The notes below the pieces were generated by a model. It was given only the letters and a program-made list of their open reading frames with translations. It made no database searches and was not told the DNA's origin. Shown in pieces: positions 11,213-58,096 of a DNA stretch of 64,000 bases (positions are counted from its first letter, which is position 1; each line of letters starts with the position of its first letter). This DNA comes from Xiphydria camelus. Its lineage: Eukaryota > Arthropoda > Insecta > Hymenoptera > Xiphydriidae. Made by a program: the position numbers and the translations under genes. The stretch lies in assembly GCA_963678675.1 (NCBI GenBank), contig OY783193.1:34138430-34202429 (forward strand), written 5' to 3'.

Positions 11213-11455
11213 CTGAGAAAAATAACTTGGTCGATTTAACTCAAATCCTACAGACGGTGACCAAACCGTTTGGTGAGATATGGATCCTCTGTTTGTTTAG
11301 TTAAACCAAGCACTTGTTAGTTAAAATGGCTAAACGTTTAGTTCGAATAATTAAACATTGGTTAGAATAACTTGATATTTGGTTCGGCTGACTAGTATTT
11401 TGATTATAATAACTAAACCAGATTTTATCATTTTAACCTAATTATTTTTCTCAGT
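11213..11455. mobile_element. MITE family A copy, 243 bp
   Basis: It runs from CTGAGAAAAATAACTTGG to TTATTTTTCTCAGTG and is preceded by TA. The core holds ACCAAACCGTTTGGT, GGATCCTC and GTTAGAATAACT, the family signature. Confidence 0.8.
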
Positions 11456-26407: not shown

Positions 26408-26480
26408 GACCGTGTGGCCTAACGGATAAGGCGTCGGACTTCGGATCCGAAGATTGCAGGTTCGAATCCTGTCACGGTCG
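26408..26480 (+). tRNA. tRNA-Arg, anticodon TCG
   Basis: All four arms fold: acceptor GACCGTG with CACGGTC plus discriminator G, D arm GCCT...AGGC, anticodon arm TCGGA-CTTCGGA-TCCGA with anticodon TCG at 26441-26443, and T arm GCAGG-TTCGAAT-CCTGT with the B box GGTTCGAATCC. It is 73 nt with no intron, and no CCA is encoded, as expected for a eukaryote. It reads CGN arginine codons. A run of seven T follows at 26486-26492. Confidence 0.97.
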
Positions 26481-28731: not shown

Positions 28732-28981
28732 CGTTGAAAAAAACAACTCGGTTAAAATGATAAAACGCATCTAGTTAAACGCATTAAGTCAAGTTATTCT
28801 AACCAAAATACTAGTCAGTTTAACCAAATATCAAGTTATTCCGATTAAATGTTTATCTATCTTAACCAAACGTTTAGTTATTCTAACCAAAAATTGGTCA
28901 ATCAAGACAAACAGATAGAGGATCCATATTTCACCAAGCGGCTTGGTTATGGTCAAATTGAACAGGTTATTTTTCATAGTG
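28732..28981. mobile_element. MITE family A copy, 250 bp
   Basis: It starts CGTTGAAAAAAACAACTCGG and ends GGTTATTTTTCATAGTG with TA on both sides. The core reads in the opposite orientation to the copy at 11213. Confidence 0.8.
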
Positions 28982-48176: not shown

Positions 48177-48403
48177 TGTGCAAAGAAGCAATACCAAATA
48201 AAAACATCGGCGGAGCGTTTCATCCCGGAGTCGGCCTGTGGACTCGTCAGTAAGGCTAGGCCGACTCCTGCTTTAGACGCTCCGTGAAGAACGGGCAGTT
48301 GCGCTCTTGTATATGTACTTGTACCGTTGTCGGATACTACCGAGAGCCGAGAGGGATCGGCGCCACCTGGTGTCGGGCCGCCACAGCGTGACGGGTTGCT
48401 ACA
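48177..48403 (-). mobile_element. Retrozyme-like LTR, copy 1, carrying a hammerhead
   Basis: On minus it begins TGTAGCAACCCGTCAC at 48403 and ends TTTGCACA at 48177. It aligns with the element at 53045-53318 through GGCGCCGA, CCTCTCGGC, ACTGCCCGT and the ribozyme, but is about 47 bases shorter. The bases flanking my proposed ends do not form a duplication, so its limits rest on alignment with the better copy. The TATA box of the other copy is degraded here. Confidence 0.65.
48212..48283 (-). ncRNA. Hammerhead ribozyme, type III, copy 1
   Basis: On minus, stem III is GGAGCGT with ACGCTCC (7 bp, no mismatch) and the cleavage triplet is GTC, cutting after C48276. Stem I is TAAAGC with GCCTTA (one mismatch). 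The core is CTGACGA (48250-48244). Stem II is GTCC with GGAT (one G-U pair), then GAAA. Loop I GGAGTCGGCC and loop II GGCCGACTCC are fully complementary over 10 nt. Every invariant core base is present. Confidence 0.85.
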
Positions 48404-49098
48404 AAACAGTTCATTATTTTAAAGCGTCACGTGATGTAAAATTCAAAATTGTGATTCTCTCTTCGCCGTCTTGCGAATTTCCTCACTTTCTAACGCTATC
48501 TCTAATTTCAGCCTGAGAATCTCATTGTAGATATTTGATAAGTCAAAGAAACATACAAGGATAAACTTATTCACCAGGAAAGGAACTTCAATAGAGTAGG
48601 CTCCTCCACCCCCTCCCCTCGAACGCCTCGCTACGCGCCGATTCGCTTTGCCCCTTTTGCCGGGGAAGACGTGTAATCGATCGCTCGCGCCGCGGAGTAA
48701 ATTAACATTCATTTTTCCACGTCGCGCGGTCGTTATGACATGCCCGATTCGTCGATAGGGATCGCGAGCTTCTCGATCTCAAAGGAGAGCACTCCCTTCG
48801 CGTTATACACGCTAATCCCGCGGCGCGGACAATGGGTCTTTAATGGGACCTCGCGCGGGTAATCTGCCGGCTGCGATCGGGAGCAACGCGCTCCCGATGA
48901 AAGAAACGCATTATTTACGTCGGGGTCGCGAGGGAACGAGCTCGTCGAACGCGGCTTTATACGGTGGTATAGCGAGCGTGTGAGGTATAAACTCAGCCTG
49001 TCGATGATGCTTCGTTAGTTAACGAGGACGATATACAGTCACTAAAGCTTTATCGAAGGCTGCTATCCCAGGCGGAAAAGTTCTGCATGGTTCGTATA
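48404..49098. other. Unique DNA, CpG-rich 48600-49020, lone element S end
   Basis: 48554-48592 matches one end of element S (ATAAACTTATTCACCAGGAA). The remainder has no recognised gene. Confidence 0.4.
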
Positions 49099-49728
49099 AG
49101 GTATAAAAAGGGGCAAACATTGACACCACTTTACTTACTGATTTAAAATATATTGCAAACTGAAGTTTTCAGATTTGATAATGTATGCATAAGCAAGCCT
49201 GACTCTCTATTTATATGATATAAGATGCATTTTGTTTTACTACTTACCGTTCTTGAATAATCATTTTAAAAAAAATTAAGTCAGATGTCAATCTTACCCT
49301 ATATTCTGTTTAAGATTGACAGCTGTTAAAATTTTCGTCCATACTGCATGCAATCGGCTAAAAATCTCAATTTTTGTTTATTACATTCCAAAATTGACAT
49401 CAGTAGGTGATTTTGTATAGAGATTAAATTACAATAGTCATTTTATTTATTAATTTTTGCCACTTTAAAAAGGCCTAAAGTACAACGATATTTCTAAAAG
49501 TTTTCTTTGTCGAAAATAGGACATGCACGTCCACGTGAAAACTTAATGACACTGAATTGGGTGATCATTATAAAAGCGCTGATATTCACGTGCGGCGTCA
49601 GGTGTGGTCCATATGCGGTATTTATAAAGGTAGACAAGAATAGTATTATACGAGTTATTAGCAGAAAGTAATAAGATTTAGAAAATGTGTCAATGTTAAC
49701 CCAGTGTCAATGTCGGTCCGCGTTACCC
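49099..49728. mobile_element. Element U copy 1, pogo-like ends, 630 bp
   Basis: The ends are AGGTATAAAAAGGGGCAAAC and, inverted, GGGTAACGCGGACCGAC, both continuing into ATTGACAC; TA lies on both sides. It is non-coding. Copy 2, in opposite orientation, is at 54236-54843 and aligns along its full length. Confidence 0.85.
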
Positions 49729-49772
49729 TAGAGTCCATACCGTGTGATTTCGAGGATGGTAATCATAGGCGT

Positions 49773-52700: not shown

Positions 52701-53170
52701 CTGCCTATGCGTGTGCTTTACGCGCATATATGTGTATCTATATACATTACTAAATCAGCAATAACTGTACTTATACAGGAAGCATCTGGGCACACCGTCA
52801 GTCGATCCAATATCGAATGAGTTAAATAAGAAGTTGAAAACACGAGTACCCACTAAATACAGTATAGTGCACTGAGAAGTAAATAATTAGTATTATATAA
52901 AGTGACAAAACGCATTTAGTTTGAAGTGTTTAGTTATTCTAATAAAAATACTGGTCAGCTGAACCAAACATTTAGTTATCCCAACCAAATGTTTAATTGT
53001 TCCAGCGAAACGTTTAGTTATTCTAACCAAAAATTGATTAGTTTTGTGGCGACCCGTCACAGTACGACGGCCTGCCGCCAGATGGCGCCGACCCTCTCGG
53101 CCATCGACTCCGCGGCTCCCGGCCCATGGCTCTCGGCTTCTCGTTAGTGGTCCAACAACGGGCAAGTTAC

Positions 53171-53178
53171 TATATAAG
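53171..53178 (+). promoter_or_regulatory. TATA box inside the retrozyme-like LTR
   Basis: TATATAAG lies 41 bases before the ribozyme. A start about 30 bases downstream, near 53200, would place the hammerhead at the very 5' end of the transcript. Promoter activity is inference. Confidence 0.55.
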
Positions 53179-53211
53179 ATCCTAACTGCCCGTATCTCAC
53201 GGAGGACTACA

Positions 53212-53281
53212 GAGCGTCTAAGGCAGGAGTCGGCCTAGCCTTACTGACGAGTCCACGGGCCGACTCCAGGACGAAACGCTC
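53212..53281 (+). ncRNA. Hammerhead ribozyme, type III, copy 2
   Basis: Stem III is GAGCGT (53212-53217) with ACGCTC (53276-53281). The cleavage triplet is GTC, cutting after C53218. Stem I is TAAGGC (53219-53224) with GCCTTA (53238-53243), perfect. The core is CTGACGA (53244-53250). Stem II is GTCC (53251-53254) with GGAC (53269-53272), perfect, then GAAA (53273-53276). Loop I 53226-53235 (GGAGTCGGCC) and loop II 53258-53267 (GGCCGACTCC) are exact complements, a 10-nt kissing contact of the kind that speeds natural hammerheads. The open stem is III, so it is type III. Confidence 0.93.
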
Positions 53282-53431
53282 CGCCACGAGTTGGCGAACT
53301 CACTTTTCGTTTGCCACAGTTTAACCAAACAGATGGAGAGTCCATGTTTCACTAAACGATATTGTTACTATTTCCAGGATTTTGGTTTGATTGACCACGT
53401 CTTTTCCTCCGTGTAATAAAACGTGTAATTA

Positions 53432-53934: not shown

Positions 53935-54235
53935 TAGCTGTGAAGATAACTTATACCGCCATGTACTCGTCCAATAAAGAAAACTAACGATACACCGCAG
54001 TCCCTTCGATTAAATCAAAAAGAAACAAATCAAACGACCATCCGTTTTCTCGTCCCTCGAACGCCAAGACATTCCATTAGCAGGTGAGCGCGTAAGCCTG
54101 GAATTTTCATAAAGGCCGCACCATGTCCGTGTAGCGATCCATGAGCGATCCTCGTTATTAAATCACATCAAGCCTGCAATTAGAGCAGACGATTCCTCGC
54201 GCGCGATGCCAGGAATTATCCTATAGGGTAACGCG
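53935..54235. other. Unique DNA
   Basis: No gene or repeat recognised. Confidence 0.4.
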
Positions 54236-54843
54236 GACCAACATTGATACTGGGTTAACATTGACACATTTTCTGAATCTTTCTGCTGATAACTCGTATA
54301 ATACTGTTCTTGTCTACCTTAATAAATACCGCATATGGACCTCCACCTGACGTCGCACGTGAATATCAGCGCTTTCATAATGATCACCCAATTCAGTGTC
54401 GTTAAGTTTTCACGTGGACGTGCATGTCCTATTTTCGACAAAGAAAACTTTTAGAAATATCGTTGTACTCTTTAGGTCTTTTTAAAGTGGCAAAAATTAA
54501 TAAATAAAATGACTATTATAATTTAATCTCTATACAAAATCACCTACTGATGCCAATGTTGGAATGTAATAAACAAAAATTGAGATTTTTAGCCGATTGC
54601 ATGCAGTATAGACGAACATTTTAACAGGTGTCAATCTTAAACAGAATATAGGGTAAGATGGACATCTGACTTTATTTTTTTTAAATCGTTCAAAAACGAT
54701 AAGTATGTAGCAAAATAAAATGCGTCTTACATAAAGAGAGAGTCAGGCTTGCTTATCCATACATTATCAAATCTGATAACTTCAGTTTGCAATATATTTT
54801 AGACCAGTAAGTATAGTGGTGTCAATGTATGCCCCTTTTACCT
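54236..54843. mobile_element. Element U copy 2, pogo-like ends, 608 bp
   Basis: The ends are GGGTAACGCGGACCAACATT and, inverted, AGGTAAAAGGGGCATAC, TA on both sides. It is the inverted relative of 49099-49728, with few differences along its length by eye. Confidence 0.85.
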
Positions 54844-55307
54844 TATATGCACACTTTCCCGAGCGTCGCGAGACGCGATGCTCACCACTCTGTTCTCCGC
54901 TCTTCTCGCTCGCTACGATCGACTTTCCCGTGCGTTCGCCGCGCGACTCGAACCCCTCCGCTACACTCTCCGGCGTACACGCGCGGGTAAACGAACGGAG
55001 GAATTACTTTATACCTATAAAGAGGTTTCCAGTTCTTGCGCGTTCCCGAGACGAGCATCACGAGTCGCGGGTAATCGGCGTCGATTATCCTCACCCGGTG
55101 CACGATACCGGCGCATGACGAAAGTTTAATTACCTATCTCGGTACGCGCGAATGGACGTACCTACCCCCGGCTTAATGAGCGCCAACGTGTCGCCAGTCT
55201 CGTTACGCGTCTTGAGGTCTTACCGCCGCGGAGATGATCGAGGAAATCATGAGATCTCGTCGAATGATTTAACAAAAATTATGTCCAATAATACGAATGA
55301 ACAATCG
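54844..55307. other. Unique CpG-rich DNA
   Basis: An ORF of 100 codons (54816-55118) overlaps others in two frames and starts inside element U. No gene is supported. Confidence 0.4.
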
Positions 55308-57770: not shown

Positions 57771-58096
57771 CACTGAGACAAATGTCAATTTATTGAAAAT
57801 CCTGGAGACGCTGAGCAAATCGTTTGGTAAAATATGAATCATCCAACTATATATATTTGGTTAAACTGACTACAATTTGGATAGAAGAACTAAACATTTG
57901 ATTGAAATAACTAAACATCTTGCTCAACCGACCAGTATTTTCATTAGAATAACTAAACGCGTTTAACCAGATGCGTTTCGCCATTTTAATTAAATAACTA
58001 AATATTTTATTCCACCGACCAGTATTTTCATTAGAATAACTAAACACGTTTAACCAGATGCGTTTCGCCATTTTAATTAAGTTATTTTTTTCACTG
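57771..58096. mobile_element. MITE family A copy with internal 87-bp duplication
   Basis: It starts CACTGAGACAAATGTC and ends GTTATTTTTTTCACTG. The segment with ACCGACCAGTATTTTCATTA occurs twice, offset by 87 bp (57927 and 58014), lengthening the element from about 240 to 326 bp. Confidence 0.85.

Follow-up and report, generated by a model that had tools for sequence, protein, structure and literature searches.

A predicted type III hammerhead ribozyme in a solo LTR of a family of small retrotransposons in an insect genome

The stretch of DNA analysed here (64,000 nucleotides, hereafter the window) contains a short segment with the bases of a complete type III hammerhead ribozyme, and thereby poses two questions: whether this segment is a hammerhead at all, and what kind of element would carry such a motif in an animal genome. 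Plant LTR retrozymes, described in the cited sections of the relevant papers from Jatropha, Citrus and other plants, carry a type III hammerhead in each LTR, a 4-bp target site duplication (TSD), a primer site, a polypurine tract and a non-coding centre (PMC4918200, PMC7761336). Their ribozymes lie 600-1000 nt apart, and solo LTRs and some multimers occur (PMC4918200, PMC7761336, PMC11722881). The retrozymes described from animals are non-LTR elements that carry type I hammerheads and have neither LTR, primer site nor polypurine tract, their TSDs, if any, being longer than 4 bp (PMC7229834). In the sections cited here, a 2024 review records complete LTR retrozymes only from dicots and describes metazoan retrozymes as non-LTR elements with type I ribozymes (PMC11722881). 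As represented by these sources, the literature is split between LTR elements with type III hammerheads in dicot plants and non-LTR elements with type I hammerheads in animals, a split into which an insect family that has two LTRs and type III cores does not fit.

Here, we describe a computational analysis of the window motif, its copies in the host genome and their two-LTR relatives. In all likelihood, the motif is a type III hammerhead, and the R region in which it lies is part of a solo LTR from a family of small LTR retrotransposons, built like plant LTR retrozymes, in an insect. The host is taken to be an insect, and a plant disfavoured, from its gene content: PF02949, an odorant receptor family not known outside insects, has 128 exon-level matches in the host genome and 0 in 14 control genomes.

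A hammerhead layout with complementary loops

An earlier note on this DNA had proposed a type III hammerhead with all core bases at 53212-53281, loops I and II that are exact 10-nt complements, and an assembly of features unlikely to arise by chance. Direct reading of the full layout confirmed the motif and its coordinates (Table 1). The invariant core CUGANGA...GAAA, a UH at the cleavage site and three helices, with helix III open, are all present, and the segments GGAGTCGGCC of loop I and GGCCGACTCC of loop II are complementary at all ten positions. A search of both strands for this layout (stems III and I of 5 bp, stem II of 4 bp, loops of at most 20 nt) recovered it once on the + strand of the window, with the core starting at 53244, and 0 times on the - strand; of 400 first-order Markov windows searched on the + strand, 0 contained it. 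By its layout the motif is a type III hammerhead, and it would be expected to cleave itself.

Table 1. Window coordinates of the LTR copies, the hammerhead motif and its parts
Feature	Position	Strand	Basis
Left target site duplication GTTT	53041-53044	+	identical to 53319-53322
Solo LTR, TGTGGCGA...TTTGCCACA, 274 bp	53045-53318	+	similarity to 20 other loci confined to unit; 4-bp duplications
TATA-like box TATATAAG, 41 nt 5' of ribozyme	53171-53178	+	read from sequence
Type III hammerhead ribozyme (predicted)	53212-53281	+	read from sequence; layout search
Stem III, GAGCGT/ACGCTC	53212-53217 with 53276-53281	+	read directly
Cleavage nucleotide C53218, predicted cut C53218/T53219	53218-53219	+	place in hammerhead core
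Stem I, TAAGGC/GCCTTA	53219-53224 with 53238-53243	+	read directly
Loop I arm of loop-loop helix	53226-53235	+	read directly
Core CTGACGA	53244-53250	+	read directly
Stem II, GTCC/GGAC	53251-53254 with 53269-53272	+	read directly
Loop II arm of loop-loop helix	53258-53267	+	read directly
GAAA	53273-53276	+	read directly
Right target site duplication GTTT	53319-53322	+	identical to 53041-53044
Second LTR copy, TG end 48403 to ribozyme end	48213-48403	-	self-comparison; similarity stops soon past ribozyme
Second-copy hammerhead, one A-C mismatch in stem I	48213-48282	-	alignment to first copy

A significant match to the Rfam hammerhead models, which the earlier note had proposed as a check, was not obtained over the window, where the sole match at the gathering score was to a tRNA and none was to a hammerhead. 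On a 501-base stretch RF00008 aligned in a shifted register and reached 22.4 bits (gathering score 48.5, E 0.026), a low score that probably reflects the much shorter loop I expected by the model; in eight loci with related copies no Rfam hammerhead match was found at E up to 1. With a covariance model (R1), weak matches of 29.9 and 26.7 bits were also obtained on the reverse strand of the two window copies, probably because the loops are near-palindromic.

The nested hammerhead fold was computed at -15.9 kcal/mol. The minimum-energy nested fold, at -31.2 kcal/mol, is a rival hairpin in which loop I pairs with loop II, and the two loops taken as a duplex give -24.6 kcal/mol. Stem I forms in prefixes of 33-50 nt, in some of them with extra mispairs, and the rival hairpin is best in prefixes of 55 nt or more. 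If the loops form a pseudoknot in addition to the hammerhead pairing, the hammerhead would be expected to prevail, and the loop-loop helix of 10-11 nt is probably the tertiary contact by which the active fold is stabilized. Nine or ten of the ten loop-loop pairs are kept in 44/44 aligned copies of the family. Paired cells across the family stood at 96.0% as against 96.0% after shuffling, with a two-sided change in one cell; variation within the family is too slight to make covariation informative, and this measure was dropped as support.

The solo LTR and its copies in the host genome

When the host genome (357 Mb, 38 contigs) was searched with window positions 53180-53290, 1453 candidates were obtained, and the 40 that were scored, the window included, all showed at least 94% identity. 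Comparison of 8.1-kb stretches around 20 of these 40 places with the window limited the similarity to one short unit, spanning TGTGGCGACC to TTCGCCACA, that has TG...CA ends and 8-bp inverted ends. An exact 4-bp repeat was present at the exact ends of 10/31 solo copies, as against 7/930 mismatched pairings, in a count confined to solo copies with both ends and excluding single-ended or heavily inserted ones; repeats of 3, 5 and 6 bp were found in 0, 1 and 0 of the same 31 copies. The TATAAG motif is kept in 13/17 aligned rows, as counted by eye. No primer site common to the 3' ends of the window subfamily was seen among the places listed (108 in all). The window copy is a solo LTR, and the window subfamily is known here from single LTRs.

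Between the first copy in the window and the second, on the opposite strand, U3 has diverged further than the ribozyme: differences affect 4/70 ribozyme positions and 29/120 aligned U3 positions (Fisher P 0.0012), a comparison in which 47 further upstream positions fall in gaps and 37 post-ribozyme positions were excluded, the second copy ending there. The flank that precedes the second copy (48404-48423, - strand; ..AACTGTTT) recurs near-identically before LTR copies at C1:39040844 and C1:39083015, and the second window copy may therefore sit within a larger repeat.

Throughout the genome, the pattern CTGANGA + 22 bases + GAAACG occurs at 814 places, compared with 21 for the reversed pattern. 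Among 100 matches listed, all on contig C1, there are 17 same-strand core pairs with spacings of 629-868 bp (743 on average); when the cores were placed at random, 0.05 pairs were obtained on average and at most 2 in any of 2000 trials. These pairs are defined by core positions, LTR ends having been checked for a minority. Relatives sought with one exact pattern in prokaryote and in viral contigs numbered 0 in each.

The integrity of the motif was assessed in 44 aligned rows drawn from 67 copies, 23 copies that were split, partial or derived from a multiplied old insertion having been excluded. A rule covering core, GAAA, UH and stems was passed by 34/44 rows, a proportion that is biased upwards because 24 of the 44 come from loci fetched by the exact 28-nt core; of the 15 rows whose loci were retrieved on overall similarity, 14 pass it. 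A fairer sample is provided by 14 places on C1 found by the 5' end alone and situated within the part of the contig that the listed core-pattern matches span, in which the core pattern is kept in seven (one split by other sequence; hand comparison), and in 6/9 of those with unique flanks. Mutation of the core in nearly all genomic copies, which the earlier note had named as a sign against a ribozyme, is thus not what the genome holds. In the TTTAGACGC subfamily the aligned stem I, with a bulge and a mismatch, still keeps 4 or 5 of its 6 pairs, so that the ribozyme of this subfamily, at first a candidate for a dead one, was classed as weakened only.

These counts bear on another account of the locus, namely that it belongs to an ordinary TRIM-type LTR retrotransposon in which a structured LTR hairpin keeps a hammerhead-like core by chance and the RNA remains uncut. 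Such an account would accommodate both the greater stability of the rival hairpin in nested folding and the absent covariation signal. We nevertheless consider it unlikely, given the joint presence of core, GAAA, UH and three stems in most copies of the biased sample, the number of core-plus-spacing matches in the genome, and the preservation of the ribozyme between the two window copies against a diverging U3.

Two-LTR relatives and comparison with known retrozymes

A search with the 5' end of the window subfamily yielded 149 places, and among the first hundred or so, which were listed, a few have G-rich tracts directly 5' of the LTR. Two of these, read as sequence (L075, L076), proceed from a common upstream sequence through a G-rich tract and TAC into the LTR. 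A 15-nt word taken from this upstream sequence occurs at 25 places in the genome, and three further such places (L077-L079) run, in 3/3 cases, via GGGGGGGAGTAC into a related LTR, designated LTR-B. A G-rich purine tract ending in TAC therefore stands directly before the LTR TG in the five loci read, but L011 is a counter-example, possessing the same internal or upstream sequence without purine tract or LTR start, as judged by eye.

The first 75 bases of LTR-B gave 316 candidates; the 40 places scored are all 100% identical over 74-75 matched bases and include 10 direct pairs spaced 811-819 bp. The 13-mer TTCGCCACATTGG, composed of the LTR end, a T and the TGG that a tRNA primer site would begin with, was found at 84 places as against 3 for the reversed word. 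This word, which holds the TTGG start of the primer site, lies 3' of 10/10 5' LTRs and of 1/10 3' LTRs in the LTR-B pairs, and the lone 3' LTR that has it may be part of a longer tandem. In seven more LTR-B copies a 5' LTR was placed by the occurrence of TTCGCCACATTGG at 813-817 bp. The two-LTR anatomy is known here from positions and short matches, the primer-site test covering TGG only; so measured, LTR-B has an LTR of ~251 bp, a centre of ~560 bp, which could not accommodate gag and pol, and a total length of ~1.06 kb, as at C1:26024563-26025626. On C1, as tested on core and spacing only, the ribozyme core lies at +177 nt in 7/8 LTR-B copies and in both LTRs of 2/3 LTR-B pairs, 813 bp apart, the third pair (C1:21604431) having the core pattern in its first LTR only.

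The family combines two direct LTRs around a short centre with a primer site, a polypurine tract, a 4-bp duplication (in solo copies) and a ribozyme core in both LTRs. On the anatomical features tested, the family falls within the definition of an LTR retrozyme, for which a circular RNA would be expected. The hint at a retrozyme in the earlier note is accordingly supported by an LTR that has two-LTR relatives, with LTR-B pairs, a primer-site start and a purine tract.

The same anatomy weighs on two further readings. Ginger-like DNA transposons have 4-bp duplications and TGT ends, and a short cut-and-paste DNA transposon of this or a similar kind, bearing a ribozyme, would fit the 8-bp inverted ends, the 4-bp duplications and the finding that copies fetched whole are single units. 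This reading is rendered highly improbable by the LTR-B copies that lie in direct pairs, by the start of a primer site 3' of the 5' LTR and by the purine tract 5' of the 3' LTR. A non-LTR animal retrozyme or a Penelope-like pseudo-LTR would be in line with the sources used here, in which animal hammerheads are mostly those of non-LTR retrozymes and Penelope-like elements. We give it very little credence, as the window hammerhead is type III, not type I, the duplications are of 4 bp, and LTR pairs, a primer-site start and a purine tract are all found.

At C24:14579675, 14580285 and 14580916, three words joining LTR end and primer site lie in tandem, 610 and 631 bp apart, which suggests a multimeric element as in plant retrozymes.

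Compared by anatomy, not by sequence, with plant LTR retrozymes as described in the cited sections, the LTR retrozyme-like family shares the type III core in the LTRs, the 4-bp TSD, the primer site, the polypurine tract, the short centre, a ribozyme spacing within 600-1000 nt, the solo LTRs and, it seems, some multimers. It differs from them in its insect host, in an LTR of ~251-274 bp as against 300-400 bp in plants, and in a loop-loop complement of 10-11 nt between loops of 13 and 14 nt. Its likeness to animal non-LTR retrozymes, as far as the cited part of their description extends, lies in the animal genome, the high-copy hammerhead repeats and the small units (PMC7229834); the type I tandem repeats free of LTR, primer site and polypurine tract by which those elements are recognized are not what the insect family presents. 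The PbTRIM element of ants, in the cited part of its description, is a small non-coding LTR element with an LTR of 152-184 bp, a 4-bp TSD, a TATA box and many solo LTRs, and apart from its shorter LTR it shares these traits of size, duplication, TATA box and solo LTRs with the insect family, from which it is set apart by description, not by sequence; the text of that paper contains 0 occurrences of 'hammerhead' or 'ribozyme' (PMC3532108). TRIM elements are defined as non-coding, less than 1000 bp long and equipped with primer site and polypurine tract (PMC10886601), a length that LTR-B slightly exceeds.

Type III hammerheads with loop pseudoknots have been described, in the cited sections of one study, from termite and toad HDV-like RNAs, from D. 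pseudoobscura and from other dipterans (PMC7936874), and the occurrence in insects of a type III hammerhead whose loops pair is therefore no novelty as such. These published motifs resemble ours in being type III, in having insects among their hosts and in the Watson-Crick or wobble contact between the loops of helices I and II. The HDV-like hammerheads differ in that their helix I is long and contains an internal loop and that their loops make contact over ~4 nt (GCCR/YGGC), and the termite genomic hammerheads are isolated motifs, unlike the insect LTR family; by that study's own search, in the portion cited, none of its hammerhead type was found in hymenopterans (PMC7936874). Work on type III hammerheads of insects is mentioned as 'in preparation' in the cited parts of PMC7761336 and PMC7936874, and may since be in print. 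We found no open-access paper presenting itself as a description of an insect LTR retrozyme, in a search that had preprints outside its scope and was mostly judged from listings; the 'hammerhead' of PMC12465672 refers to sharks.

On balance we lean towards the view that the insect elements are young LTR retrozymes with type III hammerheads, a kind otherwise regarded as peculiar to flowering plants, and are probably active to this day; that they move via circular RNAs of 0.63-0.87 kb; and that their hammerhead is a variant locked by a kissing helix of 10-11 bp, the plant and insect forms having arisen independently or one lineage having received the element of the other. In the life cycle proposed for the family, RNA polymerase II would start after the LTR TATA box, a host RNA ligase of the RtcB type would close the RNA into a circle, and the enzymes of an autonomous Gypsy-like element would copy the RNA from the tRNA-primed site and then integrate the copy. 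The family offers an animal system in which the supply of circular RNA templates to LTR retrotransposition can be tested and bears on the origin of viroid-like type III ribozymes, and its long loop-loop complement is a clean object for structural work on hammerheads.

Interrupted copies, rejected candidates and the surroundings of the window copy

A flank common to about half of the listed 3' ends of the window subfamily, as judged by eye, was read at 13 loci (L059-L071), seven of which also share their upstream flank and have GACA on both sides. Common flanks on both sides together with the GACA duplication indicate an old insertion that was multiplied with its surroundings, and the common 3' flank was for this reason set aside. 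Part of stem III is absent from 13/13 of these loci and the core reads CTGTCGA in 10/13, so that the ribozyme is broken.

Three candidates for two-LTR elements with partners 2 kb away (L072-L074) were likewise rejected. L072 and L074 each consist of one LTR interrupted by other sequence, the 4-bp flanks matching in both (GATC and TTAC), and L073 is one split LTR with a second, truncated LTR piece. At L073 the split LTR is followed by ~80 bp and then by the second piece, which starts inside stem I, and the outer flanks are ATAAT on both sides. The two copies at L049, considered as an LTR pair, differ from each other and have neither primer-site start nor purine tract, so that they were treated as probably independent.

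Other elements are inserted in the LTR at L010, L012, L014, L031, L056, L057 and L072, several of them at the TATA box (three with CAGGGTG ends) or at TTAA near the cleavage site. The last 600 bases of the minus strand of L059 resemble, by eye, the endonuclease domain of a non-LTR retrotransposon. Within the window, the LTR adjoins a dispersed AT-rich repeat (52928-53044) that recurs at 11303-11418, 28753-28896 and 57853-58007. A pair of 0.64-kb inverted repeats, 90.6% identical and ~4.5 kb apart, occupies 49095-49733 and 54221-54847, and a tRNA-Arg gene with the anticodon TCG lies at 26408-26480.
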